Both the position numbers and the translations under genes were made by a program. The notes beneath the pieces were generated by a model. The model had not been told where the DNA came from and did no database searches. It worked only from the letters and a program-made list of their open reading frames with translations. From Burkholderiaceae bacterium (GTDB taxonomy: Bacteria > Pseudomonadota > Gammaproteobacteria > Burkholderiales > Burkholderiaceae_C): a stretch of DNA of 64,000 nt. The DNA lies in contig JAIRVR010000005.1 in NCBI GenBank assembly GCA_031253795.1, positions 1 to 64,000 of the forward strand, read 5' to 3'. Below are positions 9,206-26,503 of the stretch, one piece after another; the stretch's first letter is position 1; each line of letters opens with the position of its first letter.

Positions 9206-9234
9206 TGCTTCATCCTCTCAAGGCGTGGCAGCGC

Positions 9235-10131: not shown

Positions 10132-10171
10132 GGGGATAGTATGTTGTGGGACCGGCGCACATGGCGGCCGG

Positions 10172-11455
10172 CTAGCTCCAGTGGTGCGGCAGGCGCACCA
10201 GGCCCGGCAGGGGCTTGGGGAAGATGAAGCGCAGGTGCAGGAACTGGAACCATTCGTCGTAGACGGCCAGGCCGGTCTCGTCGAACAGGAAGGCGCTGAT
10301 CACATAGTCGCCGCTGTGCAGGGGCAGATCGGGGAAGGTCAGCACCGTCTGCCAGGTGCCGTCGGGCAACTGGCGCGGTACGGCACCGTCCTCATGCGTG
10401 GCCAGCGAGGTGATGCCCACCCCCTTGGACTGCTCGATCATGAAACCGATGTGCGGCCGCTCGTCGCCACGGCCACGCGCCGTGATGGTGACCACCAGGT
10501 CCTGGCTTTGCAGCATGCCGGGCTGGTCGCCCACGGGGGCAGCCAGGTCCTTCACATCCACGGAAAGAATGCAGGCGGAACCGCTGTCGACGGCGGCCAC
10601 GGGACTGGCCTGCGCCTCCCCCCCTACCTCCGCCACGGGCGCGGACACTTCGGCCGCGGCAGGGGCCGCCGCCTCCAGCAGGGCCTGCTGTTCACGCTCC
10701 TGGCGCTCGCGCGTGTGCAGGTCATAGGCGGCCAGCACGGGTTCGGTGTCGCCGAACTGGGCCACCTGGCCGCCGCGCAGCCACAGCGCGGCATCGCACA
10801 GATGGCGTATGTGGTAGGGGCTGTGCGAACAAAAGAGGATGGTGCAGCCGCTGTTGCGGAACGCCATGATGCGCTCTATGCACTTCTTCTGGAAATGCTG
10901 GTCACCCACGGCCAGGGCCTCGTCGATGATCAGCACATCGGGCTGCACGGCGGTCACCAGGGCAAAGGCCAGGCGCACGGTCATGCCCGAGGAATAGGTT
11001 TTGACCGGGCGCTCCATCGCTTCGCCCAGCTCGGCGAAGGCGGCGATCTCGGGCTCCAGCTCCCGCATGCGCTCGGGGCTGATGCCGATCAGGCTGCCGC
11101 CGAAATACAGGTTGTCGCGGCCGCTGAAATCCGGGTGGAAGCCTGCGCCCAGCTCCAGGATGGCCGTGACCCGGCCCACGCGTTCGATCTGCCCGCGGCT
11201 GGGCTGCAAGGTGCCCGCCAGCAGCTTGAGCAGCGAGCTCTTGCCCGCGCCGTTGTCACCGATCACGCCAATGCACTGGCCCCGGTGCAGCTCGAAGGAG
11301 ACGTCGCGCAGGGCCCAATGGCTGCGGTGCGTGGCAGCCCCCGTCAGCAAGGCCTTGAAGCGCGCGCGCGGCGAGGGGTAGAGCTTGTATTCCTTGCCCA
11401 GGTCGCGCACACGCAAGACCAGGTCGCCTTCCAGTTCGACATGTTTGGCGTTCAT
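10172..11455 (-). CDS. wzt: O-antigen/polysaccharide ABC exporter, ATP-binding subunit with C-terminal glycan-binding domain
   Basis: 427 aa. The nucleotide-binding domain has Walker A GDNGAGKS at 66-73, signature YSSGM at 154-158 and Walker B VLIIDEAL at 174-181. An Ala/Pro/Glu-rich linker (about 255-285) leads to a C-terminal beta-sandwich domain (about 285-427) of the Wzt_C type, which in E. coli O8/O9a binds the capped end of the O-chain before export. The ATG at 11455 overlaps the permease stop as ATGA, so the two subunits are coupled; the frame is open upstream for another 36 codons but only as overlap with wzm. Works with Wzm to move undecaprenyl-linked polysaccharide to the periplasm. 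Confidence 0.92.
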   Translation of the reverse strand: MNAKHVELEGDLVLRVRDLGKEYKLYPSPRARFKALLTGAATHRSHWALRDVSFELHRGQCIGVIGDNGAGKSSLLKLLAGTLQPSRGQIERVGRVTAILELGAGFHPDFSGRDNLYFGGSLIGISPERMRELEPEIAAFAELGEAMERPVKTYSSGMTVRLAFALVTAVQPDVLIIDEALAVGDQHFQKKCIERIMAFRNSGCTILFCSHSPYHIRHLCDAALWLRGGQVAQFGDTEPVLAAYDLHTRERQEREQQALLEAAAPAAAEVSAPVAEVGGEAQASPVAAVDSGSACILSVDVKDLAAPVGDQPGMLQSQDLVVTITARGRGDERPHIGFMIEQSKGVGITSLATHEDGAVPRQLPDGTWQTVLTFPDLPLHSGDYVISAFLFDETGLAVYDEWFQFLHLRFIFPKPLPGLVRLPHHWS

Positions 11456-12252
11456 AGCCAGTCCACCAGTTGATCGCGGCTGCGCCGCACCAGGCCGTTG
11501 AGCAGCACGGCCAGCACCAGCAGCCATGCCACCAGGGCCACCCAGACGGAGACACCGGGCCACAGCCCCTGCAGCAGCACGTTCTGGTAGCCCAGCACCA
11601 GGGCCGTCATGGGGTTGGCCCAGAGCACCCAGCGCCAGCGTTCGGGAAACAGTGCCAGCGGAAACAGAATGGGCGACAGGTATATGCCCACCGACAGCAA
11701 AAAGGTCACCAGCTGGCCCACGTCACGCAACGCGGCCGTCAGGATGGCCAGTGCATAGGCCAGGACGGCGCACAGCAGCAACTGGCCCAGCAGCAGTGGC
11801 ACAAGGGCCAGCACATGCCAGCCCGGTCCGTGCTGGGGAAGATAGGCCAGGGCCACCAGCAACAGCAGGGGGCCGAAGATCACGCCGCTGGCCAGCACCG
11901 CGCGCATGGGAAACAGCACGGGCGGCAGGGGGTTCTTCTGCAGGATGCCGCCGGCCTCGACCAGGCTGTTCATGCCGCGCGCCGTGGCGTCGCAAAACGC
12001 CATCCAGGGCAAGGCACCCACGACGAGAAAGGCACCCACCGCATGCGTGGGGGCGTTGTCGCCCAGGCGCATGGAGAACACCACGTCGAACACGAGGTAG
12101 TAGGCAGCGACCGTGAGCAGGGGCTGCAGATAGGGCCAGAGCACGCCCGCAGCCGTGCCTGCATGGCGCGCGGCCACCTCGCGCCGGGTCATCACCCAAA
12201 GAAGGCCACGGGCCTGCCAGAGCGCCCGGATATCGCCCAATAGAGAGTACAT
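11452..12252 (-). CDS. wzm: O-antigen/polysaccharide ABC exporter, permease subunit
   Basis: 266 aa with six hydrophobic helices, of the ABC-2 type. VMTRREVAARHAGTAAGVLW near residues 20-40 is the typical amphipathic N-terminus before TM1, WPYLQPLLTVAAYYLVF follows, and NPMTALVLGYQNVLLQG lies in the last third, as in Wzm/KpsM/TagG. It forms the membrane channel for the lipid-linked glycan with Wzt. ATG 12252 (MYSLLGDIRAL) was preferred to an upstream ATG at 12327 because the extra 25 residues do not resemble the family. It is probably the first gene of the minus-strand operon running to the acyltransferases. Confidence 0.92.
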   Translation of the reverse strand: MYSLLGDIRALWQARGLLWVMTRREVAARHAGTAAGVLWPYLQPLLTVAAYYLVFDVVFSMRLGDNAPTHAVGAFLVVGALPWMAFCDATARGMNSLVEAGGILQKNPLPPVLFPMRAVLASGVIFGPLLLLVALAYLPQHGPGWHVLALVPLLLGQLLLCAVLAYALAILTAALRDVGQLVTFLLSVGIYLSPILFPLALFPERWRWVLWANPMTALVLGYQNVLLQGLWPGVSVWVALVAWLLVLAVLLNGLVRRSRDQLVDWL

Positions 12253-12310
12253 GCGTGTGATATGAACAATGCCGCGTGCGCCTTCAGGCAAACACGCGGC
12301 ACCTTGAATC

Positions 12311-12328
12311 AATGCCAAACCTGGCATT
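12311..12328. promoter_or_regulatory. Inverted repeat upstream of wzm (candidate operator)
   Basis: AATGCCA, a 4-base centre AACC, then TGGCATT: a perfect 7-bp dyad 59 bases upstream of the wzm start, in the 189-base gap between the parvulin gene and the exporter operon. A short direct repeat of GCTTGCAA lies nearby (about 12370-12387). The placement suits a regulator site controlling the polysaccharide operon, but no regulator is encoded beside it and the stem is short. It lacks a T-tract, so it is not a standard terminator. Confidence 0.3.
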
Positions 12329-12441
12329 CTCGCGCATCAAGCGCCGCTGCGCTCGCCAATCGGAGCAAAGCTTGCAAACGCTTGCAACGGCCAGCCCGTG
12401 CGCTGCCAGTGCCTGGGGCACCGGCAGGCTCGGGCATGGCC

Positions 12442-13392
12442 TCAGGGCTGGGCCTTGTTCGCAGCCGTGAAGGCCTCCAGCGCGGCCTCGTTCAGCTTGG
12501 CATCCTGCCGGATCTTGTCGGCCGCGGCGACGCGGGCATTCTGGGTCGCCGATGCCTGGATTTCCTTGACCAGTTCGTCGCGCACCTCGTCAAAAGGCTT
12601 CACGCCCGCGGGCCTGCGCTCTTCCAGCTGGATGATGTGGAAACCGAACTGGGACTCGACCACGGCACTGAGTTCGCCGGGCTGCTTCAGCGCGAAGGCC
12701 GCCTTCTCAAACTCGGGCACCATGCGGCCCGCACCGAAAAATCCCAGATCGCCGCCACGCGATGCGCTGCCCTTGTCGCTGGATTTTTCCTGGGCCAGGG
12801 TGGCGAAATCGGCACCATTCTTGAGGTCGGCCAGGACCTTGTCGGCCTGCGCGCGGGCCTCGGCGTCCTTGCCGCCGATCAGGATGTGGCGAGCACGCAC
12901 CTGCGCGTCCACCTTGAAGCGCTCGGGCTGGGCCTGGTACTGGCTGCGTGCCAGCTTCTCGGCGGCCTCCGCGCTGGGGCGGCTTTTCTGATCCTGGGCA
13001 GCCATCCAGGCCTCTGCCAGCACCTTGTCGCGCGCCACCTGCAGGGCCGCCATCACCTTGGGGTCGCTGGCCATGCCCTGCTGCTGCGCCGTTTGTGCCA
13101 AGCTGCGCAGGACAAAGAGGTCCGTCGCCATTCTCTGCACATTCGCAGGGCGGCCGATGATCATGGGCCTCACGTCGGGAGGAATGCGCAGTGCGTCGGC
13201 CTGTACATCCAACCCCGTGATGGCCACGCCCTTGCCTTCCACCAGCACGGGCGATGCAGAAGCCTCGGCGGGTCGGGAAGCAGCAGGCTGAGCGGCCTTG
13301 GCGGCCTGGTCCGCGGCCTGCACCGCCAGCGCAGACAGCGACAAGGCCAAAGCCAGGGAAATGGAGCTCAAACGTTGGGTGGAAACAGTCAT
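12442..13392 (-). CDS. Periplasmic parvulin-type peptidyl-prolyl cis-trans isomerase (PpiC/SurA-like)
   Basis: 316 aa. Residues 1-26 are a Sec signal peptide (hydrophobic SISLALALSLSALAVQA). A helical chaperone-like region is followed by a parvulin domain at about 165-260: VRARHILIGG, DFATLAQEKSSDKGSASRGGDLGFFGAGRMVPEFEKAAF in outline, and FGFHIIQLEER, all hallmarks of the PpiC fold. It would catalyse prolyl isomerisation and assist folding of exported proteins in the periplasm. It sits directly downstream of the S-layer-like gene on the same strand, separated by a strong terminator, so it is probably expressed at a lower level or from its own promoter. Helping that protein fold is a reasonable guess. 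Confidence 0.88.
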   Translation of the reverse strand: MTVSTQRLSSISLALALSLSALAVQAADQAAKAAQPAASRPAEASASPVLVEGKGVAITGLDVQADALRIPPDVRPMIIGRPANVQRMATDLFVLRSLAQTAQQQGMASDPKVMAALQVARDKVLAEAWMAAQDQKSRPSAEAAEKLARSQYQAQPERFKVDAQVRARHILIGGKDAEARAQADKVLADLKNGADFATLAQEKSSDKGSASRGGDLGFFGAGRMVPEFEKAAFALKQPGELSAVVESQFGFHIIQLEERRPAGVKPFDEVRDELVKEIQASATQNARVAAADKIRQDAKLNEAALEAFTAANKAQP

Positions 13393-13418
13393 AAGTCCTA
13401 TAAGTCCGTAAAAAGCAA

Positions 13419-13446
13419 AAAAGGCGGGAGTTTCCTCCCGCCTTTT
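13419..13446 (-). terminator. Strong intrinsic terminator downstream of the S-layer-like gene
   Basis: A perfect 12-bp stem (AAAAGGCGGGAG at 13419-13430 with CTCCCGCCTTTT at 13435-13446) and a 4-base loop. It carries A and T tracts on its two sides, so it could stop transcription from either strand. It lies 31 bases after the stop of the S-layer-like gene and before the parvulin gene, as expected for a very highly transcribed single gene. Confidence 0.88.
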
Positions 13447-13477
13447 CTAGATCACACTGAAGTGTGAAAGTGCCCTA

Positions 13478-14983
13478 TCACTTGTAAGCGTGGGGCCAGG
13501 TGATGCCGTAGGTGCCCGAAGTGCCAGGAGCAGCTTGGGGGTTCGACAGCTTGATGAACGCAGCGCCCAGCACGGGGGTGGGAGCCGAGAAGTTCACTTG
13601 GCCCCAGCCGTTGGCGTAAGGAGCAGCCACGGACTGGCGAGCAACCGATGCGGCCAGAGCCGAGTTGTCGGTCGAGAAGCCCAGAACGTTCACTTCACCG
13701 CACAGCTGGGTCTTGCTGATCGTGCCAGGCGAGAACACGGCGCCGTCTTCTTGGAAACGCTCTTCGCGGTCATAGAAGGTTTGGCCCGAAGCTTCCACGC
13801 AGATCTGACCAGCGGCGTTCACCGTGGTGTTGCCCGCGTTAGCCGTGAAGATGTTGCCAGCCACAGCCGTGTTGAACAGACGGTACGAGGTAGCAGCAGA
13901 CGTGCCACCGCCGAACGCAGCGCCAGGAGCCTTTGCGTCCCAACCGTTGTTGTTGGAGGGAGCAGATGCGGAACCAGCGGCGTAGTTGGCAGCCACGGAG
14001 TAACGACGGGTGGGCATGGAGAACACCCAGTCGGTCTTGGCCGTGATGGTCGCGTCGGTAGCGTACTGGTTGATCACCGAGGTACGGGCGATGGCGTCGG
14101 TCAGAGCCTTGGCTTGTGCATCGGCAGCAGCTTGGCCAGCAGTCAGACCACCAGCAACGGTGTAAGGCGTGGACAGGTCAGGCACGTCGTAGTGCTGAGC
14201 TGCGATCACGTTAGCCACCATCAGCGGGTCGGAGGTCAGCAGGCCGGCGGTACCGGTCTTCTGGGGCGAGAAGACGTTCACAGGAGCGTCACCCGTGGCG
14301 ACGATGGCAGCCATCGAACCCGAGAAGGTCGTGGTCTGAGCAACGTTCATCACGTACCAAGCGCCCGTCAGGCCGCCCGTGGGGGCGACGATGTCGGTGT
14401 TGTCCACACCGGGTGCCCAGTTCAGGGTGGCGTTCAGAGCGGAAGACGTGCAAGGAGCCGTGCCGTCCACGTGCTTGATGGCCTTGTACAGGTCGCTGCC
14501 AGTCTTGATGTTGGCCATGGCCAGCACTTCGACGTAGCCTTCGCGGGTCTGAGCAGCCTTGTCGGCGGCCGTCCAGTCCTTCTTGGACAGGCGGTCGGTC
14601 ACGAACTTGACGGGCTGGTTGGCAGCGATGCGGGGCAGCGTGCAGGTGTTGTCAGACGTCACCAGTTGGGCCAGGCCATTGGCGTCGGCGGTCACTGCAG
14701 CAGTCCAAACGTCGCCGGGCGACATGAAGACTTGGAAGTCCAGCACGTCGTCGGAGTTGGAAGCACCGCGGAAGCGCACCTTGACAGCCTTACCGATGGT
14801 GTCGGTGTTGGTCAGGTGGAACACGGACATGTTGCCATTCTGGGCGTTGTAGTAAGGCGCCAGCAGAATGTGACCCGTGCCGCTTTCGTTCACGGCAAAC
14901 GTAGGAGCTGCAGCAGCAGCACCTGCGAAGCCCATGCCACCAACCATGGCAGCAATGCTCAGGGCCAGAACATTTTTCTTCAT
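13478..14983 (-). CDS. S-layer-like secreted surface protein, resembling the nanopod protein NpdA of Delftia
   Basis: 501 aa. Residues 1-24 or so are a signal peptide (MKKNVLALSIAAMVGGMGFA then GAAAAA, with cleavage near AAAAAP). The mature protein is rich in Ala, Thr, Asn, Val and Gly, with few Cys (four) and little Lys, no membrane helix and no recognised enzyme motif: the composition of a secreted, self-assembling surface protein. Start: ATG 14983 with GGAGA about 8 bases upstream; the upstream frame is the leader region. The codon choice is narrower and the GC lower than in neighbours, and a strong terminator follows, all signs of very high expression. From memory it resembles the Comamonadaceae S-layer/nanopod protein NpdA; a search is needed to confirm. 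The type II secretion operon ends just upstream, suggesting an export route. Confidence 0.65.
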   Translation of the reverse strand: MKKNVLALSIAAMVGGMGFAGAAAAAPTFAVNESGTGHILLAPYYNAQNGNMSVFHLTNTDTIGKAVKVRFRGASNSDDVLDFQVFMSPGDVWTAAVTADANGLAQLVTSDNTCTLPRIAANQPVKFVTDRLSKKDWTAADKAAQTREGYVEVLAMANIKTGSDLYKAIKHVDGTAPCTSSALNATLNWAPGVDNTDIVAPTGGLTGAWYVMNVAQTTTFSGSMAAIVATGDAPVNVFSPQKTGTAGLLTSDPLMVANVIAAQHYDVPDLSTPYTVAGGLTAGQAAADAQAKALTDAIARTSVINQYATDATITAKTDWVFSMPTRRYSVAANYAAGSASAPSNNNGWDAKAPGAAFGGGTSAATSYRLFNTAVAGNIFTANAGNTTVNAAGQICVEASGQTFYDREERFQEDGAVFSPGTISKTQLCGEVNVLGFSTDNSALAASVARQSVAAPYANGWGQVNFSAPTPVLGAAFIKLSNPQAAPGTSGTYGITWPHAYK

Positions 14984-15043
14984 AAGAACTATCTCCAGTA
15001 AAAAGATAAGGTAGTTGCAACCACCACGATTGATCGCCAGGGA

Positions 15044-15052
15044 ATCGTAGCA
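15044..15052 (-). promoter_or_regulatory. Candidate extended -10 promoter element of the S-layer-like gene
   Basis: On the minus strand this reads TGCTACGAT, an extended -10 (TGn plus TACGAT) about 60 bases upstream of the ATG at 14983. There is no good -35 at 17 bases, which extended -10 promoters tolerate. A second -10-like GATAAT lies further upstream, near 15150. Tentative. Confidence 0.3.
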
Positions 15053-15234
15053 CAGCCAATCATGCCCCCATACCGCTTTCTGGAGGCGCCGAAGCCTTGT
15101 TTTGAAAAAAAACAACACTTCCCTAGCGAGCACCGTGTCAGGGACGGCGCATTATCACAAACATTGGCTGCTTCGCCTATCCCGTCTTCATTTTTCGCGC
15201 TATCAGGCAAGTGCCTTGCATGCGAAAAACCGTT

Positions 15235-15259
15235 GGCAAACCCCGTCGAGGGGCCTGCC
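15235..15259 (-). terminator. Probable terminator downstream of the small lipoprotein gene
   Basis: On the minus strand GGCAGGCCCC and GGGGUUUGCC (as RNA) pair in a 10-bp stem with two G-U pairs and a 5-base loop, followed after 5 bases by UUUUU. It lies 7 bases beyond the lipoprotein stop and would separate the secretion operon from the S-layer-like gene. The offset T-tract makes it less certain. Confidence 0.45.
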
Positions 15260-15266
15260 TAAACGT

Positions 15267-15698
15267 TTATTGAACGAACAGCCACCACTGTCCGTCTTCC
15301 TTGATCCAGACCTCGCTGATCGAGATCGGGATCTCCGCGCCACGCATCATGGGCGTGTAGGTCACGAAGTTCTTGCGCACCTCACAGCGGGCCTCCTCGC
15401 AGGTCACCGAGGCGATCTCTCCCCCCTTGAGCACGGGAATCACGCCGTGGTTGAGGCGGTACTTTTCCTGGTCATTCACCGCGCGGTAGCCGGGCGAGGT
15501 GAAGGCATAGGCCTTGGCCACCTCGCCAGCCATGCGGGCCTTCCAGAAATCGTTGGAGCGCTGCGTCACCGCGGCCTCGGGATTCTGGCTGTCCTGCAAC
15601 GTGGCACAGCCCGCCAGGGCCAGCGCCAGGGCCAGTCCACCGCCCCAGCGAAGCCATTGCGTCCGGGACGCTGCGAAATTCTTGTTCAACTTCTTCAT
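15267..15698 (-). CDS. Small putative lipoprotein of unknown function
   Basis: 143 aa. A positively charged start (MKKLNKNFAASRTQWLRW), a hydrophobic run LALALAL and the lipobox LAGC place the lipidated cysteine at residue 31, so the mature protein is about 113 aa and membrane-anchored in the periplasm. It has a compact domain with two further cysteines (TCEEARCEV) that could form a disulfide and ends in WWLFVQ. I do not recognise the family. It follows gspD by 67 bases on the same strand and may be the last gene of the type II secretion transcript; a pilotin (GspS-like) role is possible but not shown by sequence. Confidence 0.75.
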   Translation of the reverse strand: MKKLNKNFAASRTQWLRWGGGLALALALAGCATLQDSQNPEAAVTQRSNDFWKARMAGEVAKAYAFTSPGYRAVNDQEKYRLNHGVIPVLKGGEIASVTCEEARCEVRKNFVTYTPMMRGAEIPISISEVWIKEDGQWWLFVQ

Positions 15699-15765
15699 AT
15701 CTATGGATTTCCCCTAAAGTGGCTTGGAACCGCTTCATCAGCGAATGTTCCGGGAGTTGGACCAA

Positions 15766-18234
15766 TTAGCGTCGTTCCGGCGTGAGCGGTCCCACCTCGA
15801 CCGAGGCCCGGCCGCCCGGAACATCGTCCGCCGCGGGCGCCGAAGACGGCACCTTCAGCAACGGCGCCAGGGAACGCATCTGCTCACGCAAGGCATCGCT
15901 GACATCGCGCACATCGATATCGGTGCGAACCACGCGGGGCGTGATGATGACGATCAGCTCGGTGCGCGCACCGGTATTGTTCGTGGAACCGAACAAATTG
16001 CCCACGACCGGCAGATCATAGAGATAGGGGATGCCGGCGCGTCCTGCGCTGGAGTTTTCCTGGATCAGGCCCCCCATGACGATGGACTCGCCCGAGCGCA
16101 CGGCCACACGGCTCGCGATCTGGCGCTGCAGGAAGGAGCGCTGCTTGGTCACCGTATCTTCGCTGCCCACATCGGTGACGGATTGATTGACCGTCATGGT
16201 GACCAGATTGCCGGCATTGACCGACGGCGTGACCTGCAGGTTCACGCCCGTGTCCTTGTACGCGTAATTGTTGATGGGCGTGCCCGAGGTGCCTACCACC
16301 GTGGTGCCGGACTGGTAGGGTTGCTGCGTTCCCACGGAAATCGCGGCCTGGTGGTTGTCCAATACCATCAGCGTGGGACTGGCCACGACCTTGACCTGGG
16401 TCTTGCCCGCCAGCGCCGTCAGCACGGCCTTGATATTGCCCAGGGAGTTCTTGAGCGTGTAATTGAAGCCCTGGCCCTGCGCCAGACCCGCCAGGGCACC
16501 CGTTGCGGTATCCAGCGCCGAAGCCCCGGGGGGCGTAGTCGCATCGCTCAGCAGCCCGCCGTTGCCCGTATAACCCTTGTTGCCCACGTCGCCGCTGAAG
16601 GCCCACTGCAGGCCATAGCGCAGGGAATCGTTGAGCGTCACCTCGACGATGCTGGCCTCGATCAGCACCTGGGTCGGCGGCAGGTCCAGCTTCCTGAGCG
16701 CCACTTCGATGCGCTCGTACTCCGCTGGCGATCCCCAGACCAGAACGGAATTGTTCAGCTCGTCGGCCATGACCCGGATGCTGCCGAAGCTGGCCACCAC
16801 CGCACCCTGGCCCGTACCCGACTGGCCTGACGTGCCCGAGGTCTGTCCGAAGCTGTTCGTGCGCAACCCGCCGCTGGAGCCGAAGCCGCTGCTGCTTCCG
16901 AAGCCACCGCTGCTGCCGAAGCCGCTGTTGCTGCCGAAGCCGCTGTTGCCAAAACCGCTGTTCCCGAAAGGACTGCTGCTGTTGCCAAAGCCGCCTATGC
17001 CCTGTCCCGTGGTCGAGGTGCCCAGGCCGGGTGCCACGCCGCTGTTGGCGGTCGAGCCACCGCCCGTGCCACCGAAAATGCCGGAAAGCACGCTGGCCAG
17101 ATGCCGGGCGTTGCCGTTTTGCACGCGGTAGATGTTGAGCTGGGGCTGGGCACCGCCCGTGCCTGCCTGGTCCAGCTTGGCGATCCAGCGCCGCGCCTCG
17201 TCCAGGTAGCTGGCACGCGGCGTGATCACCAGAATGCTGTTGAGCCGTTCGATGGGAATGATGCGCAAGGCACCGAACAATGGATTGCCGTCGCCCAGGG
17301 CCGTGGCTGCCGCAGCCCCGGCCGGTGCGCCGCCCCCCGGCCGTGCACCGGCCGCGCCTGGCGCCGCAATGCCCCCCGCGGCCCCAGCTGCCGCGGCACC
17401 GCCACCATTCATCAGCTGCAGGGCGGAGCTCACTTCCTGGATGGACACATACTTGAGAGGGAACACGCCGACCGACATGCCTTCGAGCACGTTCACATCA
17501 AAGGTGCGCACCATCTCCAGCCAGCCTTCGGCCTGGGCGCGCGAGCCGGACATCACCAGCACGTTGCGCACCGTGTCCACGCGCAAGATGGCATCCGCCG
17601 GCACCATGGGCCGCAAAATCGTGGCCATTTCGTTGGCACCGATGTAGTTCAGCGGAATGACCACGGCGCCGAAGCCAGGCGCCAGTGGAACGGACGATGA
17701 CACCTGGCGCACCGAGGCTCCCAGGCTCTTGAGCACATCGGCGCGTCCCACATGGTAGGTGCCGCGCGCATCCCGGACGATGGCCAGGCCGTTGGCCTGC
17801 AGGGCCGTCTCGAGCAGGTACAGGGCCTGGTCGCCGGGAATGTTCTTTTGCGTGCTCAGCGTGACCGTGCCATTGATGGGCGGATGCAGCACATAGTCCA
17901 GCCCCAGGATGTCGCCCAGCACGGTGCGCACCACCTGGGACAGCGGCGCGTCCTCGAAGCTGAGCTTGACGGGGGCGTCCTTGAGGGCCGGGGTCGGCTT
18001 GGGGTCTCCCAGCAGCTTGCCCGTACCCGCCAGGATGCGCGGCTCGGTCTTGCCGTCCTTGTCCGGCTCGCCCTTGGCCTCGGGCTCCTCTCCGGGGAAC
18101 ACATAGCTTTCCTGCGAAGGGCCGGTTCCAAAGTGGCTGACGAAGTTGTTCTTGGCGGGCTGGGCACAGGCCAGCAGCATTTGACAGACAGCCAATGCCA
18201 ATGCAGTGCGGAGGGGACGGTTATGCAATTTCAT
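15766..18234 (-). CDS. gspD: Type II secretion outer-membrane secretin
   Basis: 822 aa. Lipobox LLAC with Cys23 suggests a lipidated secretin that might reach the outer membrane without a separate pilotin. N0 and N1-N3 ring domains follow (VKLSFEDAPLSQVVRTVLGD near 90-110; IPLNYIGANEMATILRPMV; FPLKYVSIQEVSSALQ), then the secretin beta-barrel domain at about 590-790 (VVASPTLMVLDNHQAAISVG; GIPYLYDLPVVGNLFGS). It forms the gated outer-membrane pore through which folded exoproteins leave. Residues about 406-478 are an unusual Gly-Phe-Ser-Asn low-complexity stretch inserted in the N3 region. Being last in the gsp operon is unusual compared with the common gspC-D-E order. Confidence 0.93.
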   Translation of the reverse strand: MKLHNRPLRTALALAVCQMLLACAQPAKNNFVSHFGTGPSQESYVFPGEEPEAKGEPDKDGKTEPRILAGTGKLLGDPKPTPALKDAPVKLSFEDAPLSQVVRTVLGDILGLDYVLHPPINGTVTLSTQKNIPGDQALYLLETALQANGLAIVRDARGTYHVGRADVLKSLGASVRQVSSSVPLAPGFGAVVIPLNYIGANEMATILRPMVPADAILRVDTVRNVLVMSGSRAQAEGWLEMVRTFDVNVLEGMSVGVFPLKYVSIQEVSSALQLMNGGGAAAAGAAGGIAAPGAAGARPGGGAPAGAAAATALGDGNPLFGALRIIPIERLNSILVITPRASYLDEARRWIAKLDQAGTGGAQPQLNIYRVQNGNARHLASVLSGIFGGTGGGSTANSGVAPGLGTSTTGQGIGGFGNSSSPFGNSGFGNSGFGSNSGFGSSGGFGSSSGFGSSGGLRTNSFGQTSGTSGQSGTGQGAVVASFGSIRVMADELNNSVLVWGSPAEYERIEVALRKLDLPPTQVLIEASIVEVTLNDSLRYGLQWAFSGDVGNKGYTGNGGLLSDATTPPGASALDTATGALAGLAQGQGFNYTLKNSLGNIKAVLTALAGKTQVKVVASPTLMVLDNHQAAISVGTQQPYQSGTTVVGTSGTPINNYAYKDTGVNLQVTPSVNAGNLVTMTVNQSVTDVGSEDTVTKQRSFLQRQIASRVAVRSGESIVMGGLIQENSSAGRAGIPYLYDLPVVGNLFGSTNNTGARTELIVIITPRVVRTDIDVRDVSDALREQMRSLAPLLKVPSSAPAADDVPGGRASVEVGPLTPERR

Positions 18235-18255
18235 GGTTTGAGTGACCAGTCTTTC

Positions 18256-18936: not shown

Positions 18937-19529
18937 GGCTTGCTCCGGAGAATGCTGAAGGTAAATTGGGCGCTGAGCTTGGGCGCGGCCCTGGGGTTGT
19001 TGCCCTCCAGGCTGCCCAGCAGGTTCAGTTGCAGATCATCCAGCCACACGGTAGGAGAGACTTCGCGGAAAGACAGCAAGGCCAGCTGTATGGCCGGCCA
19101 GTTGCCTTCCGCCGTCATGGACACGGAAATGCGCTCGTACGGTCCTTGCACCTGCCCCTGGTCTTCCGACTCCGACGCAGGCCGCACCTGGCTGCTGACG
19201 ACGGACAGGCCTGCCTTGTCGAGCAGGGCCCGCAGGCGCTGCTGAATGGCATTGCCGGTCTGCGTGCTGTCCTGCTCGCCAGGGTAGACATGCTGCGCCT
19301 TCACCGTGGCGATATCTTCCAGCGCCTTCTGGATATCGTCGGATTGCGCCTGCATACCCACCAATCTGGCATAGCGGGGCTCCATCGTCGCCAGTTGCTC
19401 CTGCGCCCAGAGATGCTTGCCATAGACCCAGGAGCCCAGAAGCGCCAGGGGAACGATCACCGCCAGGGCCAGCACGCTCAGCAGCAGCCACTGACGTGGT
19501 GTCAGCTTGGGAGAAACCGCGGCGGTCAT
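18933..19529 (-). CDS. gspM: Type II secretion platform protein GspM
   Basis: 198 aa bitopic protein: cytosolic start, one membrane segment (WLLLSVLALAVIVPLALLGS, about 14-33), a coiled-coil-prone stretch (LATMEPRYARLVGMQAQSDD), and a ferredoxin-like periplasmic domain near 90-195. It binds GspL in the inner-membrane platform. The start overlaps the gspL stop (ATGA at 19526-19529) and its end overlaps the GspC-like gene, so the three are coupled. Assignment rests mainly on size, topology and operon position. Confidence 0.85.
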   Translation of the reverse strand: MTAAVSPKLTPRQWLLLSVLALAVIVPLALLGSWVYGKHLWAQEQLATMEPRYARLVGMQAQSDDIQKALEDIATVKAQHVYPGEQDSTQTGNAIQQRLRALLDKAGLSVVSSQVRPASESEDQGQVQGPYERISVSMTAEGNWPAIQLALLSFREVSPTVWLDDLQLNLLGSLEGNNPRAAPKLSAQFTFSILRSKP

Positions 19530-20650: not shown

Positions 20651-20766
20651 AGGCCACCATTTCCACTCAACAAAATTGCATTCACTTGCGCCGAATCCTT
20701 CCTGGTGCGCCCTCCGGGGCACATGCCTCGCCCCGGGCGCGGCCGTCGGCCGCTGGCGGTGCCTTG

Positions 20767-21534
20767 CTAAACCCGTCCCGCCCAGACCTGGGCCGCCGAC
20801 AGCAGCGTCCAGGGCAAGGCCCCCTGGCTTCCGCCGCCGATATCCACATCGCGCATCACCATGACCGCCCCCTGCCCATCGAACACGGTGCGGGCAGTCA
20901 GCCGATAACGTGTGCTGTTGGTACTGTCCTGCCCTGTACTGCCATCCAGCAGCTGGCGCAGCGCAGGCGCTGCCGCATTGGCATTGACACCGGGCCGGCC
21001 GTCGATATCGGCCACCACGAAAGGCTTGAGCCGGGCATAAATGCCGTAGTTCATGCCTGGTATCTGCAGCAGGTCCTCGGGCGACTCCCATGCAAAGCCG
21101 CTCGCAGCCGCCTGACGGGCCTCTTGGCGGGCGTCCACCAGGGCCTGTGCAATCCCTTCGCCCGCCCCTCCCCCCAGGCGCGAGATCAAGGTGCTCAACA
21201 GAGGCTGGGACGCGGCATTGATATCCACCAGCCCGCTCCACGGGACCACCTCGACCTCTATTATCCGGCCAGCCCATGGAAGCTGCACCACCTGATACTG
21301 GGAGAACTCCGCAGGTTTTAGCACCATTTGCTGCAGCAGCTGATAGATGGCGGCCTCGCCCATGGCCCGCCCTTCCGCCATGTTCCGGGTTACACCAATG
21401 ACCGCCGCCTCCTGGCGCACCATGCGCCCCAGGCTGCTGGCGAAAATCGACAGCGCCGCCACGATCCACAGCACCAGTACCAGGGCCATGCCCCGGGAGT
21501 GCCCCACTGCCTTGGTCGCCGGATGCCGCTTCAT
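20767..21534 (-). CDS. gspK: Type II secretion minor pseudopilin GspK
   Basis: 255 aa. Prepilin-type start with cleavage expected after Gly15 (HSRGMALVLVLWIVAALSIF); as usual for GspK, the +5 glutamate is missing (Leu). SGLVDINAASQPLLSTLI and a helix-hairpin-helix-like ESPEDLLQIPGM near 165 are typical of the large GspK alpha domain. It caps the tip of the pseudopilus with GspI and GspJ. It overlaps the gspJ stop by 4 bases. It is smaller than the E. coli-type GspK (about 320 aa). Confidence 0.9.
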   Translation of the reverse strand: MKRHPATKAVGHSRGMALVLVLWIVAALSIFASSLGRMVRQEAAVIGVTRNMAEGRAMGEAAIYQLLQQMVLKPAEFSQYQVVQLPWAGRIIEVEVVPWSGLVDINAASQPLLSTLISRLGGGAGEGIAQALVDARQEARQAAASGFAWESPEDLLQIPGMNYGIYARLKPFVVADIDGRPGVNANAAAPALRQLLDGSTGQDSTNSTRYRLTARTVFDGQGAVMVMRDVDIGGGSQGALPWTLLSAAQVWAGRV

Positions 21535-22199
21535 CGGCGGCTCCCGCCAAATACGGCGCCACCGCCGCCCGTGCTGCGGTTCGTGGTCGGCGGCGTATAG
21601 AACGCAATCGCCATCACAGGCCAGCTTCCCGCCGCCGATTGCAGCTGGATCTGCACGGCCGTGGGCAGATCCTTTTCATCGGCCCATTGGGGCTGCCATT
21701 GGGCCACATTGACTCTCGCGTTCTGGTAACTCAGCGAAAAGGCCGTGACTGCACGTTCCAGCACATAGGACTGTGCCTGGCTCCAGTCCGGCGCGACCTG
21801 CACGCCCTTCCAGGGTGCAAAGCGCAGCACCAGGGCGTCGCCGTCCAGGGCGAGCTGGAAGTGCGTGATCCCGCCCATGCCAAAGCGTGCAGGCATGATG
21901 CCAAGCCACTGCATGCCTTTCGGCCCGCCTTCGAAAAAGTATTCGCTCTCGCCCTGCTTGCGCATGCCCGTCTGGCGCTGTGCGGCCGACAGCTGTCCCA
22001 GCACCGAGCGCAGAAAGCCGATGGAGACACGCTGGTGGTCCATGCGGTCAAGGCGCACATCCACGCGTTCCTGCGTCTGGGACACCGTGGACATGACCGT
22101 CGCCAGGCCCAGGGTCAGCATGGAAAGCAGCACCATGGCCACCAGAAGCTCCACCATCGTGAAGCCCCGCTGCCTGCGTCGCAACACATCCCGCCTCAC
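21531..22199 (-). CDS. gspJ: Type II secretion minor pseudopilin GspJ
   Basis: 222 aa. RRRQRGFTMVELLVAMVLLS gives a type III prepilin signal, with processing between Gly12 and Phe13 and Glu at +5. The C-terminal beta domain contains LVLRFAPWKGVQVAP and ends in a Gly/Ser-rich tail. It forms the GspI-J-K tip complex. The 4-base overlaps with gspI upstream and gspK downstream show tight coupling. The prepilin peptidase gene (gspO/pilD) is not in the window. Confidence 0.9.
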   Translation of the reverse strand: MRRDVLRRRQRGFTMVELLVAMVLLSMLTLGLATVMSTVSQTQERVDVRLDRMDHQRVSIGFLRSVLGQLSAAQRQTGMRKQGESEYFFEGGPKGMQWLGIMPARFGMGGITHFQLALDGDALVLRFAPWKGVQVAPDWSQAQSYVLERAVTAFSLSYQNARVNVAQWQPQWADEKDLPTAVQIQLQSAAGSWPVMAIAFYTPPTTNRSTGGGGAVFGGSRR

Positions 22200-22600
22200 C
22201 GCGCCACCTCGCCCTGCTGCAGCGGACGCTGAGGCCGCAGGGTCTCGAATACCCAGTTGCGCCCTTCGGCGGAGATGGTGATGCGCAATGCAAACAAGGG
22301 CACGGCATTGGCCGGCAGATCACCTGCGGAAAACGGTGCCGACACCACCTGCCAGCCAAAGGCACCATCCTGGCCCGAGGCCTGGACCCCGCCGGGGTCC
22401 ACCATGGGAAAGGCATCCATCAGGGAATCGGCCAGCAGGGCGACACGCTGGGCCTGTTCGAGCTTGGCCACGCCGCGCGCCGAGCCACCCACGGCGCGGT
22501 AGATCAGCGCGACGGACAGCGCCATGATGGTCAATGCCACCAGCAGCTCCAACAGCGTCATGCCGCGCACTGCCGCGCGCACTGTCTTGCCCTGGTGCAT
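22196..22600 (-). CDS. gspI: Type II secretion minor pseudopilin GspI
   Basis: 134 aa. VRGMTLLELLVALTIMALSV is a prepilin signal with cleavage after Gly13, Met at +1 and Glu at +5; a short beta domain follows (WQVVSAPFSAGDLP, LRITISAEGRNWVFETLRP). Size and order match GspI, the initiator of tip assembly. It overlaps gspJ by 4 bases, and its ATG abuts the gspH stop. Confidence 0.9.
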   Translation of the reverse strand: MHQGKTVRAAVRGMTLLELLVALTIMALSVALIYRAVGGSARGVAKLEQAQRVALLADSLMDAFPMVDPGGVQASGQDGAFGWQVVSAPFSAGDLPANAVPLFALRITISAEGRNWVFETLRPQRPLQQGEVAR

Positions 22601-23046
22601 TACAGGGCCTCTTTGGTGACCAGGCCCGACAGCCAGTCCACACGCAGTCGCACGCCGGCACCGCCTTCGGCCCGTACCAGGGAAATGCTGCCCCCCGTGG
22701 CGCCGCCTTCGGGCAGGAAGACGATGCTCTGGCTGCCGTCGGGCGTTTCCAGGCCCGCCGCCGTGACCAGCTGGACCTTGAGGCTGTCGGGCAGGCGGCT
22801 TCGGGCCTGGCCCTCGATGCCATATTCGTGGCTTCTGGCGTTGAAGCCGAAGGCCACGGGCACGCCTTGCAGCGCGGCTTGCTGGCGTGCCTTGCGCAAC
22901 AGGCCCGTGACATCCTGCACGGCCTGGCGATACGCCACGGCATCGCGCAGCTTGCCCAGGGCAGGCGGCACGATGCCGATGATCACCGCCAGGATGGCAA
23001 AGACCACCAGCAGCTCGATCAGCGTAAAGCCCTTCGATCGCTTCAA
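22600..23046 (-). CDS. gspH: Type II secretion minor pseudopilin GspH
   Basis: 148 aa. KRSKGFTLIELLVVFAILAV is a prepilin signal cut after Gly6, with Glu at +5. LLRKARQQAALQGVPVAFGF is the GspH/FimT helix-to-strand segment, and a beta-sandwich ends the protein. It links the tip complex to the GspG fibre. The gap to gspG is 47 bases. Confidence 0.9.
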   Translation of the reverse strand: MKRSKGFTLIELLVVFAILAVIIGIVPPALGKLRDAVAYRQAVQDVTGLLRKARQQAALQGVPVAFGFNARSHEYGIEGQARSRLPDSLKVQLVTAAGLETPDGSQSIVFLPEGGATGGSISLVRAEGGAGVRLRVDWLSGLVTKEAL

Positions 23047-23093
23047 GACGCTTTTCCGTTCACAAGGCCCACCGCCGCGGCAACGCTGCAGGC

Positions 23094-23534
23094 TTATTTG
23101 GTGTTGCGGATATCGGAGGCCTCGCCCTCACCGCCCGGAGTTCCGTCGGAACCCAGCGACAGGATTTCCACGTCGCCATTGGCGGCCGGATAGGTGTAGC
23201 GATAGGGGTTGTTCCAGGGGTCGTTGGGCACGCCGCCCTTGAGGTAGGGACCGGCCCAGCCGCCGACCCCGGCCGGCTGCTTGACCAGGGCTTCCAGGCC
23301 CTGCTGCGAGGTCGGATAGCGGCCCACGTCCAGCTTGTACAGCTCCAGCGCCTTTTCGATATCGGCGATCTGCACGCCTGCCGTCTTGGTCTTGGCACCG
23401 CCCAGCTGGTTCAGCACCTTGGGGCCCACCAGACCGGCCAGCAGCGTCAGAATGGCCAGCACGACCAGCAGTTCGATCAGCGTGAAGCCACGCTTGCGGG
23501 CGCGGGAGGACAGTTGCTTTTGCATGCGCATCAT
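23094..23534 (-). CDS. gspG: Type II secretion major pseudopilin GspG
   Basis: 146 aa. ARKRGFTLIELLVVLAILTL: cleavage between Gly16 and Phe17, Glu at +5. GLVGPKVLNQLGGAKTK, LELYKLDVGRYPTSQQGLEA and PWNNPYRYTYP are the classic GspG body, and LSLGSDGTPGGEGEASDI is the calcium-binding loop with its Asp and Glu ligands. It is the most abundant pseudopilin and builds the periplasmic piston. 31 bases separate it from gspF. Confidence 0.95.
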   Translation of the reverse strand: MMRMQKQLSSRARKRGFTLIELLVVLAILTLLAGLVGPKVLNQLGGAKTKTAGVQIADIEKALELYKLDVGRYPTSQQGLEALVKQPAGVGGWAGPYLKGGVPNDPWNNPYRYTYPAANGDVEILSLGSDGTPGGEGEASDIRNTK

Positions 23535-23565
23535 CTTCTAAATACCTTTCAGAAATTCAAAATCA

Positions 23566-24783
23566 TCAGACGGCCAGATCGTTGACGGAGAGGATACCGA
23601 GCAGGATCGACACGATGATGGAGGCGATCAGGATACCGAGGACCAGGATCAGCGCCGGCTCCAGCATGGTGAGCAGGCGTTTGATTGCATTTTCCACCTC
23701 TCGGTTCAATATGTTGGACAGCTCCAGCATCATGTCGCCGAGCCGGCCGGTCTCCTCGCCCACCCGCACCAGATTCAGGGCCAGGGGCTCGAACTCCCCG
23801 GACTTCTGTGCGGCATGGGCCATGCGGTGGCCTTCCTTGACCATGGGCCCCATTTTCTCGAGACGTTCGCGGATGGCCGCATTGGAGACGGTATCGCTGG
23901 CAATGCGCAACGCCGTCAGCAGGGTGACGCCATTGCCCAGCAAGGTGCCCAGCGACCGGCTGAACAGGGTCAGCTGGTATTTGCGCACCACGCCACCCAG
24001 GCCGGGCAGACCCAGCAGCCAGGCCTGCCAGGCCAGACGGCCCCTGGGACTTCTCATCCAGCGCCGCACGACCCAGACCAGCAGGGCCACCACGATGAAC
24101 ACCACCCAGCCATAGCTGCGAAATCCCTTGCCCAGGGCCATGACGAACTGGGTGGGCAGGGGCAGGGCATCGCCCATATCGTTGAACAATTGCTCGAACT
24201 GCGGCACGACGAAGCCGAGCATGGCCACCAGGGACAGCACGGCCACGCCCAGCAGGATGGCCGGATAAATCGTGGCCGAAACCACGCTGTCGCGCAGCGA
24301 GCGCTGGCGCGCCATGTGCTCGACCAGGCGGTTGAGCACGGCCGACATCTGGCCGCTGGCCTCGCCCGAACGCACCATGTTGATATAGAAATCGCCAAAC
24401 AACTCATGGTGCTTGGCCAGGGCCTGGCTCAGCGGCATGCCGGCCTTCACGCTTTCGAGCACGGACTGCAACATGGCCCGCATCTCGATCTTGTGGCTCA
24501 TTTCGACCAGCACCTTGAGCGCATTGTCCAGCGACAGGCCGGCACGCATCATGATGGCCAGCTCCGTGGTCATGGCCTGGATGTCGTCCGTCTTGATGCG
24601 GCCCTTCTTCAAGGCCCGCACCACCACGGTGGCGCCGCCCAGGCCCGAGGACTCCTCGACCTTGATGGGCGACAGCCGGCTTTTGCGCAGATGCACCACG
24701 ACCTCGGCCACGGCGGCGGCCGAATACGTGCCCTTGACCACCTGGCCCTTGCCGTCCACGGCCTCCCAGCTGTAATCAGGCAT
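23566..24783 (-). CDS. gspF: Type II secretion inner-membrane platform protein GspF
   Basis: 405 aa. MPDYSWEAVDGKGQVVKGTY is the family start. Two repeated GspF domains (about 75-195 and 275-395) each hold a FxxNxxxxGExSGxL-like motif (INMVRSGEASGQM; LNLVRVGEETGRLGDMM), with three membrane helices. The ATG at 24783 overlaps the gspE stop by 8 bases; the frame is open upstream only within gspE. It couples ATP hydrolysis by GspE to pseudopilus growth. Confidence 0.94.
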   Translation of the reverse strand: MPDYSWEAVDGKGQVVKGTYSAAAVAEVVVHLRKSRLSPIKVEESSGLGGATVVVRALKKGRIKTDDIQAMTTELAIMMRAGLSLDNALKVLVEMSHKIEMRAMLQSVLESVKAGMPLSQALAKHHELFGDFYINMVRSGEASGQMSAVLNRLVEHMARQRSLRDSVVSATIYPAILLGVAVLSLVAMLGFVVPQFEQLFNDMGDALPLPTQFVMALGKGFRSYGWVVFIVVALLVWVVRRWMRSPRGRLAWQAWLLGLPGLGGVVRKYQLTLFSRSLGTLLGNGVTLLTALRIASDTVSNAAIRERLEKMGPMVKEGHRMAHAAQKSGEFEPLALNLVRVGEETGRLGDMMLELSNILNREVENAIKRLLTMLEPALILVLGILIASIIVSILLGILSVNDLAV

Positions 24784-26503
24784 CGCTTTGGTCCTGGGTA
24801 ACGCGCAGCACTTCGTCCAGCGTGGTCGCGCCCGAGGCCACCTTGCGCAGGCCGTCCTCATACAGGCTCAGCATGCCGCTTCTGGCCGCCAGCGCATGCA
24901 GGGCATTGGCGTCCTGGCCCTCGATGATGGCGCGGCGCAGCGGCTCGTCGATGACCATCAGTTCGTGGATGCCGGTACGGCCCTTGTAGCCCGTGCCACG
25001 GCAATGCTCGCAGCCCACAGCGCGGTAAATCGGGGCACCTTCGCGCAGGAAGCGCTTGAGGCCACTGCCCTCGATGGCGGAGGCCGGCAAGGCGTCGGGC
25101 TGCTTGCACTGCGAGCACAGCGTGCGCACCAGGCGCTGGGCCAGCACGCCGTTGACCGACGAGGTGATCAGGTAGCTCTCCACCCCCATGTCGCGCATGC
25201 GGGTGACGGCGCCAGCCGCCGTGTTGGTGTGCAGCGTGGACAGCACCAGGTGACCCGTCAGTGCCGACTGGACGGCGATCTGCGCGGTTTCGCCGTCACG
25301 CATTTCCCCGATCATGATGATGTCCGGATCCTGGCGCAGGATGGAGCGCAGTGCATTGGCGAAGGTCAGGTCGATCTGTGGATGGACCTGGATCTGGTTG
25401 ATCCCGTCGAGCTGGTACTCCACGGGGTCCTCGACCGTGATGATCTTGTTGGAGACCGAGTCGATCTTGGACAGGGCCGCATACAGCGTGGTGGTCTTGC
25501 CCGAACCCGTGGGACCGGTCACGAGCACGATGCCGTGGGGCCTGGCCAGCAGTTCGTTGAAGCGCTCCAGCGTATCCACCTCGAAGCCCATGGTCTCCAG
25601 GCGCAGGCGCACGCTGGCACGGTCCAGCACACGCATGACGATGCTTTCGCCGTGGACCGTGGGCGCCGTGGACACGCGCAGGTCCAGTTCGCGCCCCTTG
25701 GCCCGGGTCTTGATACGGCCGTCCTGCGGCAGGCGCCGCTCGGCGATGTCCAGATGGGCCAGCAGCTTGACGCGCGAACCCACGGCGGCACTCAGGCGCG
25801 TGGGCACGAGTTCGGCCGCGTGGATCACGCCGTCCATGCGGTAGCGCACCTGCAGGCCCGACTCAAAGGGCTCCAGGTGGATGTCGGAAGCGTGCAGCTC
25901 GATGGCCCGCGAAATGATGCCCGTGACCAGGCGGATGACGGGTGCCTCGCTGGCCAGGTCCTTGAGGTGCTCGACGAAGTCGCCGCCCGTGGCGTCCGAC
26001 TCCCAATCCCCGCCCTCCTCGGCCGCCTGCTCCTGGCCGGCTTCCTGCAAGGCCTTGCGGATGTCGGCCTCCAGCGCCAGCAAGGGCCGGATCTGCAGGC
26101 CCGTGGCCAGGCGCAGCGCCTTGTTCACAAAGGCATCCTGGGGCACGGCCATGGCCACCTCGAGCACGCCTTCCTGCAGCGACACGGGGCAGACGCATTG
26201 CGCCTCCAGGAAACCGGGCAGCAGGCCCGGCACCTCGGGCAGCAGGTCTGGAAACTCCTCGGCGCGCAGCCAGCGCAGCTTCAGTTGTTCGGACAGCACC
26301 TGGGCCACGTCCGTTTCCGCCACCACGCCCAACTGGACCAGCACCTGCCCCAGATAGCCGCCCAATTCCTGCTGCGCCTGCAGGGCATTTTGCAGATCGC
26401 GCTCGTTGAGCTTTCCCGCGGAAAGCAAGCGCTCACCCAAACGCGAACCCGCCGGGGTTTCTACGCTGGCAAGCGGTTCCATGACGTGATTGGTGGAAGA
26501 CAT
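24776..26503 (-). CDS. gspE: Type II secretion assembly ATPase GspE
   Basis: 575 aa cytosolic hexameric ATPase. N1/N2 domains (MshEN-like, about 20-150: LGERLLSAGKLNERDLQNAL) bind GspL; Walker A GPTGSGKTT is near 330, an Asp box with LRSILRQDPDIIMIGEMRD near 395 includes Walker B, and the His box TGHLVLSTLHTN is near 420. A zinc-binding C-terminal module has two CxxC pairs (CSQC near 465, CEHC near 500). The first gene of the operon; ATG 26503 was kept, though Met8 is also possible. No clear Shine-Dalgarno is seen. Confidence 0.95.
   Translation of the reverse strand: MSSTNHVMEPLASVETPAGSRLGERLLSAGKLNERDLQNALQAQQELGGYLGQVLVQLGVVAETDVAQVLSEQLKLRWLRAEEFPDLLPEVPGLLPGFLEAQCVCPVSLQEGVLEVAMAVPQDAFVNKALRLATGLQIRPLLALEADIRKALQEAGQEQAAEEGGDWESDATGGDFVEHLKDLASEAPVIRLVTGIISRAIELHASDIHLEPFESGLQVRYRMDGVIHAAELVPTRLSAAVGSRVKLLAHLDIAERRLPQDGRIKTRAKGRELDLRVSTAPTVHGESIVMRVLDRASVRLRLETMGFEVDTLERFNELLARPHGIVLVTGPTGSGKTTTLYAALSKIDSVSNKIITVEDPVEYQLDGINQIQVHPQIDLTFANALRSILRQDPDIIMIGEMRDGETAQIAVQSALTGHLVLSTLHTNTAAGAVTRMRDMGVESYLITSSVNGVLAQRLVRTLCSQCKQPDALPASAIEGSGLKRFLREGAPIYRAVGCEHCRGTGYKGRTGIHELMVIDEPLRRAIIEGQDANALHALAARSGMLSLYEDGLRKVASGATTLDEVLRVTQDQSDA

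Follow-up and report, generated by a model that had tools for sequence, protein, structure and literature searches.

S-layer loci described to date

The folding, mass export and attachment of the surface layer (S-layer) proteins of Gram-negative bacteria are known for few species. NpdA is an S-layer protein, also the protein of nanopods, that has been described from Delftia acidovorans and Paracidovorax citrulli (PMC3110197; PMC10765051). A further member of this family, with the same kind of gsp cluster upstream, is encoded on contig JAIRVR010000005.1 of a Burkholderiaceae bacterium (assembly GCA_031253795.1, 59% complete), whose positions 1 to 64,000 are referred to here as the window. The npdA gene is accompanied by genes for a type II secretion system (T2SS), a lipoprotein, a parvulin-type prolyl isomerase and the polysaccharide exporter Wzm/Wzt. 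The locus is read here, with a probability of about 0.68, as an island dedicated to the folding, export and anchoring of an S-layer protein in which the coat protein is exchangeable. This reading is built on the parts themselves, their conserved linkage and co-occurrence, a motif in GspE and the conservation of a Wzt domain; each functional step is inferred from them.

The S-layer of P. citrulli AAC00-1 was shown to be formed by NpdA (PMC10765051). The same paper reported in 2023 that 12 gsp genes upstream of npdA are largely conserved in Beta- and Gammaproteobacteria, compared the arrangement with those of Aeromonas VapA and of Slr4, and proposed a mutational test of the T2SS. In the available part of that paper the gsp genes alone are described at the locus, and the terms isomerase, O-antigen, lipopolysaccharide and anchor are absent from its main text, while its supplementary figures may show some of these genes. 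The present analysis adds the parvulin, the lipoprotein and Wzm/Wzt, together with the GspE motif and the occurrence of other secreted proteins in this gene setting. At the slr4 locus of Pseudoalteromonas tunicata the T2SS genes stand immediately upstream of the S-layer gene, as they do at npdA (PMC7821379). The portion of that account available to us describes no parvulin, lipoprotein or Wzm/Wzt, and Slr4 and NpdA are likened by gene context alone.

The closest arrangement is that of the Aeromonas VapA islands. The open reading frame (ORF) table of A. hydrophila AH-1 lists rmlBDAC, spsE to spsM, orf2, spsD, vapA, wzm and wzt, a wzt deletion in this strain is without O-antigen, and in A. salmonicida the T2SS and vapA genes lie between wzm and wzt (PMC4413209, PMC4483657, as far as the available parts go). 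The order is nearly that found in Comamonas odontotermitis, which is rfbBDAC, gspE to gspM, gspC-like, gspD, lipoprotein, npdA, parvulin, wzm and wzt. The AH-1 table differs in that vapA comes immediately after spsD and is not separated from wzm by an isomerase, and VapA and NpdA are likened by gene order alone. The C. odontotermitis island lies on a 373-kb plasmid (L035, NZ_CP083452.1, 295175-336094; L and G numbers denote loci and genomes of this study) and includes dTDP-rhamnose and glycosyltransferase genes. In the window, too, T2SS genes, the S-layer gene and Wzm/Wzt stand in one block.

The initial annotation of the window had considered a dedicated secretion-to-anchor module for a nanopod protein to be undescribed. 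This does not hold, because the npdA-gsp linkage was published in 2023 and in Aeromonas a T2SS, the S-layer gene and the O-antigen genes for Wzm/Wzt are already known to form an island of nearly this order; the concept of such an island is therefore known. New relative to the literature found are the parvulin and the NTF2-like lipoprotein as constant companions of npdA. The novel part is the set of conserved companions, together with an exchangeable coat protein and a GspE of the cyclic di-GMP (c-di-GMP) type; the gsp-npdA half is already published. Linkage of a foldase gene to an S-layer gene in Proteobacteria is apparently undescribed in the open-licence literature, as judged mostly by titles and the openings of abstracts, and the available part of a paper on a membrane-associated archaeal parvulin mentions the S-layer (PMC4922055).

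Conservation and co-occurrence of the npdA neighbourhood

All ORFs named in the initial annotation were found at the positions given there. Its proposal would have been refuted had the loci been adjacent in this genome alone, and this was excluded by comparing 80 named npdA loci, which are biased to closer relatives because they are the best 80 of 135 confirmed candidates. The parvulin gene lies immediately 3' of npdA in 65 of the 76 loci with at least 1.2 kb downstream. The remaining 11 comprise two loci in which it is 3.7 and 5.6 kb away (L106, L112), eight extra npdA copies in genomes that apparently have a module locus too (L126, L127, L132, L136, L137, L138, L140, L141) and L123, which was assigned to neither group. 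The wzm and wzt genes are downstream of npdA in 57/68 loci with at least 4.5 kb of sequence there, and the lipoprotein gene is no more than 1.2 kb upstream in 62/78. Where at least 3.5 kb was present upstream (71 loci), 56 have gspD on the strand of npdA, three have it on the other strand and 12 have none. Additionally, 20 regions were fetched around the NpdA matches of the family, and most primary loci have the order gsp...D, lipoprotein, npdA, parvulin, wzm, wzt, from which the paralogue clusters L050, L052, L053 and L054 depart. The explanation that the genes are neighbours by chance in the window genome is refuted, since most of the 80 named loci, and some of those from other families, keep the adjacency.

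Co-occurrence was determined in a sample of 150 genomes of the family, 19 with NpdA and 131 without, using bit thresholds chosen after the match lists were seen. A parvulin match of at least 112 bits is present in 17/19 NpdA genomes and 0/131 others (best listed there 108.7), and a Wzt match of at least 480 bits in 16/19 and 0/131 (best there 300.3). GspD of at least 590 bits, or matched in two pieces, occurs in 17/19 NpdA genomes and in one of the 131 others (G065). NpdA and the module-type GspD and Wzt are all missing from the complete genome G120, which is of the same genus as the window; there rfbBDAC comes after coaX, and no module gene is seen within that 20 kb. The npdA genomes also supply controls of their own. 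Their second, standard T2SS loci (16 loci, 11.7-20 kb each) have no match to npdA, the lipoprotein, the parvulin or a module-type wzt, a count that leaves out weak 31-52-bit ABC-ATPase matches in seven of them.

These data bear on the alternative that the linked T2SS is a general-purpose system with NpdA as one of many substrates, and that the neighbourhood reflects co-transfer of surface genes. Such an origin would fit the G065 cluster, which is kept without npdA, and the entire block on the 373-kb plasmid, which places it on mobile DNA. It is improbable, however, since each of the 17 npdA genomes searched lists a separate standard GspE and the npdA-type GspD is nearly confined to npdA genomes, in the proportions given above. 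Dedicated export of NpdA by the linked T2SS is, from gene content and linkage, very likely. The proposal of the initial annotation that a T2SS, a foldase and a polysaccharide exporter serve the surface protein is supported by conserved linkage, co-occurrence and same-genome controls, and fails as a claim of novelty. In the fetched stretch of G065 (L064, L240) the npdA-type gsp cluster has no npdA, lipoprotein, parvulin or wzm/wzt match beside it, and it is possibly a repurposed system.

The NpdA coat protein and its parvulin

The npdA gene (13478..14983, minus strand, as are all module genes of the window) encodes 501 amino acids. The biased, Ala/Thr/Asn-rich composition noticed at first was confirmed, the mature part (from residue 26) having 17.0% Ala, 10.7% Thr and 6.5% Asn, a mass of 49.2 kDa and a pI of 5.4. 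The protein has no match in Pfam or NCBIfam. It was assigned to the NpdA family by homology over its full length to the NpdA proteins known from D. acidovorans and P. citrulli and by a signal peptide (judged from the sequence), and it also shows the typical feature of the family, a gsp cluster beside the gene. Best-segment identity is 65% to the locus of D. acidovorans NBRC 14950 and 53% to that of P. citrulli DSM 17060, and the closest named npdA loci are those of Delftia. The predicted model is confident (predicted local distance difference test, pLDDT, 86.8; predicted template modelling score, pTM, 0.89) and mostly beta, with no good fold match among solved structures.

Some genomes carry tandem or many npdA paralogues, including four in a row in L050 (G017) and those of L054 (G034), which possibly represent variable coats. 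Nine Acidovorax/Paracidovorax loci hold an extra npdA without a module gene in reach (L110 and the eight extra copies listed above). Neither "paralog" nor "second copy" appears in the main text of PMC10765051.

The parvulin-type isomerase (12442..13392) has a signal-peptide-like start and matches PF13616 with 109.4 bits, in agreement with the periplasmic parvulin of the initial annotation. Substrates of a T2SS fold prior to export, so NpdA would fold in the periplasm with the help of the neighbouring parvulin, and a foldase role of this protein for NpdA is likely.

The type II secretion system and its ATPase

The gsp operon spans 15766-26503 in the order gspE-F-G-H-I-J-K-L-M-C-D, as first annotated, and its ATPase, secretin and major pseudopilin all score over the equivalog cut-offs of NCBIfam. 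These are GspE (24776..26503; TIGR02533, 632.2 bits against 630.25), GspD (15766..18234; TIGR02517, 456.5 against 351.35) and GspG (23094..23534; TIGR01710, 158.3 against 88.85). The top match of GspF (23566..24783) is TIGR02120, which covers residues 4-403 with 365.7 bits and is under its cut-off of 424. The genes gspH (22600-23046), gspI (22196-22600), gspJ (21531-22199) and gspL (about 19526-20770) were named from order and similarity to relatives. GspM (18933-19529) matches PF10741 and GspK (20767-21534) matches PF03934, weakly and under the cut-off, and the gspC-like product (18256-18936) has no Pfam match; relatives have the genes from gspH to gspC in the same order. No prepilin peptidase gene was noticed within the cluster, and the rest of the genome was not searched for one.

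GspE features an N-terminal putative c-di-GMP-binding motif. Residues 21-73 fit the 53-residue model NF053729 of the MshEN receptor domain of MshE/GspE ATPases (PMC5013675, available in part) with 53.5 bits, over the curated cut-off of 38. In the first half-motif, RLGERLLSAGKLNERDLQNALQAQ, the Arg, Gly and Gln are kept and a Lys follows the second Gly. The curated model was preferred to a strict hand-written MshEN pattern, by which several module GspEs were missed. At E<=0.001 it matches 17/18 module GspEs (17 genomes and one plasmid) and 0/14 GspEs of second T2SSs (a sample without those of G000, G017 and G139). It also matches 8/10 GspEs of gammaproteobacterial clusters, the G065 cluster and class-2 loci, the last being npdA-less modules with a secreted protein of ~320 amino acids. 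Among members with scores shown, the GspE of L239 is under the curated cut-off (24.7 bits). These matches point to a module GspE that probably senses c-di-GMP. A link between MshEN and S-layer export is not described in the available part of PMC5013675.

The N terminus of the window GspD resembles a lipobox, and GspD was considered as a self-piloting lipoprotein secretin. This was dropped because the lipobox pattern, which like the start sites used is crude, is found in just 16/63 module GspDs, compared with 6/16 of the second T2SSs and 5/6 of class 2.

The NTF2-like lipoprotein

Between gspD and npdA lies a lipoprotein gene (15267..15698) that was absent from the initial annotation. An alignment of 39 sequences reveals three invariant residues, the lipobox Cys31, Cys100 and Cys105. 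The protein has no Pfam family match, and its predicted model (pLDDT 84.9) resembles NTF2-like domains in a Foldseek search (3k7c, E 4.3e-4, TM 0.49/0.61), in which PBP2a chains rank first. The gene is kept near npdA with no gsp gene in reach in six loci (L185, L189, L190, L191, L192, L202), and it has no match beside the npdA-type gspD of the npdA-less L064 (G065). For these reasons the lipoprotein is tied to the coat protein and not to the secretin; it appears to track NpdA, not GspD.

Wzm/Wzt and the proposed anchoring of the S-layer

The polysaccharide exporter consists of the ABC-2 permease Wzm (11452..12327; PF01061, 51.7 bits, cut-off 26.9) and the ATPase Wzt (10172 to about 11461). Wzt matches PF00005 and, with its C-terminal glycan-recognition domain, PF14524 (31.5 bits, cut-off 30.4), which confirms the exporter first noticed next to the 501-residue protein. 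The C-terminal domain has a mean pairwise identity of 57.4% among the module Wzts of 16 genomes (120 pairs, outlier G059 excluded) or 53.1% with G059 included (136 pairs), and of 23.4% among 12 other Wzts from nine of these genomes (66 pairs). The conservation of the module proteins is partly due to closer kinship, because their ABC domains differ too (76.1% vs 46.4%). A conserved recognition domain suggests a conserved end of the exported glycan, as an anchor would need.

Anchoring of the S-layer by O-polysaccharide is judged somewhat more probable than the contrary. It is graded no higher because the S-layer protein NpdA is described as glycosylated (PMC3958437) and because whole cells show a dense lipopolysaccharide (LPS) band that nanopods lack (PMC3110197), both sources being available in part. 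The first of these observations is the basis of the main rival on anchoring, namely that the Wzm/Wzt glycan mainly glycosylates NpdA, or serves both uses, and is not an LPS anchor; the linkage of wzm/wzt to npdA fits glycosylation equally well. This is nevertheless unlikely, as no oligosaccharyltransferase-like gene was noticed beside npdA in the inspected loci (no search was aimed at one), and in Aeromonas, where the island has almost this gene order, the LPS O-antigen is lost in wzt mutants (PMC4413209, PMC4483657, in the parts available).

The missing LPS band also fits a second and comparably unlikely rival, in which attachment of the lattice depends on an outer-membrane protein or on the NTF2-like lipoprotein, with the polysaccharide genes being no more than co-regulated surface genes. 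In Delftia, contact between a porin and the S-layer is known from older literature. The lipoprotein gene is a frequent neighbour of npdA, and some loci have no wzm/wzt in reach (e.g., L129, L131, L139, L142). The presence of wzm/wzt after npdA in 57/68 loci and the conserved glycan-recognition domain argue against this rival.

Proposed route of NpdA to the surface

In the dedicated island proposed here, NpdA would be expressed, probably at a high level, from a transcription unit of its own, would pass the inner membrane via a Sec-type signal and would be assisted by the parvulin as described above. The NTF2-like lipoprotein may act on NpdA, as an outer-membrane-held chaperone, escort or attachment factor, instead of serving GspD as a pilotin. 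Folded NpdA would then be driven through GspD by the neighbouring T2SS, powered by its GspE, which probably responds to c-di-GMP. Wzm/Wzt would export a conserved O-polysaccharide, the outer part of which would hold the lattice on the cell and on nanopods.

Several observations, including the LPS band missing from nanopods, weigh against this reading. Eleven of the 80 named loci have npdA without any companion, of which nine are second copies in genomes that apparently have a module locus; the other two are L123 and L151, the latter a 4.4-kb contig. Wzm/wzt is not in reach in 6/63 loci that have the parvulin and 4.5 kb downstream. In the family sample, G034 and G008 have NpdA and no npdA-type GspD at E<=1e-60, the Wzt of G059 is dissimilar, and G011 and G008 are cut by contig ends. 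Among 20 regions from outside the family, nine have no companion (these include two second copies and some regions that are weak matches or lie at contig ends), L188 is without the parvulin, and L183 has gsp and the lipoprotein and no parvulin or wzm/wzt within 20 kb. In the window GspE, the second half of the putative c-di-GMP-binding motif reads YLG...Q, with Tyr in place of Arg. Finally, how the lipoprotein acts cannot be read from its pattern of linkage.

Related loci outside the family and without npdA

The 20 regions from other families stem from a class-wide npdA search of 370 genomes, 18 of which matched. The lipoprotein is found in 11 of them, the parvulin in eight, wzm and wzt in eight and gspD in five. 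The whole companion set is present in L184, L186 and L187; the wzm/wzt of L202 is weak and by eye resembles a capsule exporter.

Additionally, eight npdA-less genomes have a GspD 41-47% identical to that of the window according to the match rows. In the seven of these loci that were examined, a Wzm/Wzt pair stands ~6-7.5 kb past gspD (the eighth contig stops at gspD). The gap is filled in six of the seven by a homologous lipoprotein, the ~320-residue secreted protein of class 2, a second probable lipoprotein and a parvulin-type protein. The secreted protein is unrelated to NpdA or very diverged from it (22.9% in the comparison), and the lipoprotein is homologous to the NpdA type (profile of five, 98.7%, E 1.6e-16). 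The parvulin-type protein of L059, the single one tested, matches Rotamase_2 with 26.5 bits against a cut-off of 27, and the gene of L062 is broken into pieces. The class-2-like locus L063 (G144) carries a third kind of secreted protein in two copies and, where the parvulin would stand, a DsbC-type disulfide isomerase; it has no lipoprotein match.

The lipoprotein profile, used as bait, matched 29 of the 370 genomes, some of them known NpdA loci. Of nine further regions, L298, L299, L300 and L303 are module-like, L296 and L297 have class-2 secreted-protein pairs with the lipoprotein and no gsp, and L301, L302 and L304 contain nothing relevant. The order in L298, L300 and L303 is secreted protein, second companion, parvulin, NTF2-like protein, wzm and wzt, with gsp genes immediately upstream in L300 and L303 and none in reach in L298. 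The order in L299 is gsp, secreted protein, wzm and wzt, with no parvulin match. The secreted proteins of these four loci have no Pfam family. The NTF2-like protein of L298, L300 and L303 matches the profile of the NpdA-type lipoprotein (97.9%, E 6.1e-13). In L298 and L300 the second companion, encoded after the secreted surface protein and before the parvulin, is an FG-GAP repeat protein, and L303 has a similar ORF; this protein is possibly a further export or attachment factor.

Since these related loci keep most helper genes around unrelated or very diverged secreted proteins, the coat protein is read as exchangeable, and the npdA-less secreted proteins may likewise form S-layers. A broader generalization, put forward tentatively and with slightly less than even confidence, is that Beta- and Gammaproteobacteria share a largely constant S-layer chassis in which several unrelated or very diverged coat families are swapped. 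It would consist of a c-di-GMP-sensing T2SS, the NTF2-like lipoprotein, a dedicated periplasmic foldase (parvulin, in one case DsbC) and Wzm/Wzt as exporter of a conserved anchoring glycan. If so, c-di-GMP would act as the switch for the export of S-layers and nanopods, and the chassis could lead to unknown S-layer proteins. The narrower reading, if right, would already provide a list of parts, nearly complete and open to testing, from which bacteria of soil and water build nanopods and S-layers, with the parvulin and the NTF2-like lipoprotein as two new candidate factors. It would also predict c-di-GMP control of coat export and supply bait for S-layer proteins that sequence search misses.

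Transcription units and flanking genes

Terminator-like hairpins follow both the lipoprotein gene (15259-15235) and npdA (13449-13416, a strong hairpin of 15 pairs), and for this reason npdA appears to be transcribed by itself, flanked by a gsp-lipoprotein unit and a parvulin-wzm-wzt unit. Both hairpins are consensus matches only, as are the 26 of this kind in 9000-27600, where 10.9 are expected from shuffles. No match to a sigma-70-type promoter was found in the same range. The npdA leader (14984..15055) is strongly conserved between the window and 22 other loci, and features TGTGCTACnAT followed by GCGTAATCAATCGTGGTAGTTGCGC, a T-rich stretch and GGAG; it contains TGTGCTACGAT, which by eye resembles an extended -10 element. 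A conserved RNA structure of the leader was rejected (consensus energy -0.57 kcal/mol, no covariation), and Rfam has no match in 9000-27500. The start of the NpdA signal peptide, MKKNVLALSIAAM, is likewise unusually conserved.

Past wzt, two class I methyltransferase genes (9235-10131 and 8345-9205, minus strand) extend the polysaccharide genes, matching the two annotated methyltransferases after wzt in NZ_CP083452 with 429 and 448 bits. The surface-polysaccharide region goes on beyond them, with large methyltransferase/glycosyltransferase-like and acyltransferase-like ORFs, recognized by eye, in 2380-8390. On the other side, coaX (26570-27472, minus strand) adjoins the gspE end of the gsp cluster. 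In NZ_CP083452 the order is coaX-rfbBDAC-gsp...-npdA-parvulin-wzm-wzt, and in the window rfbBDAC lies away from the module, at 48464-51921.

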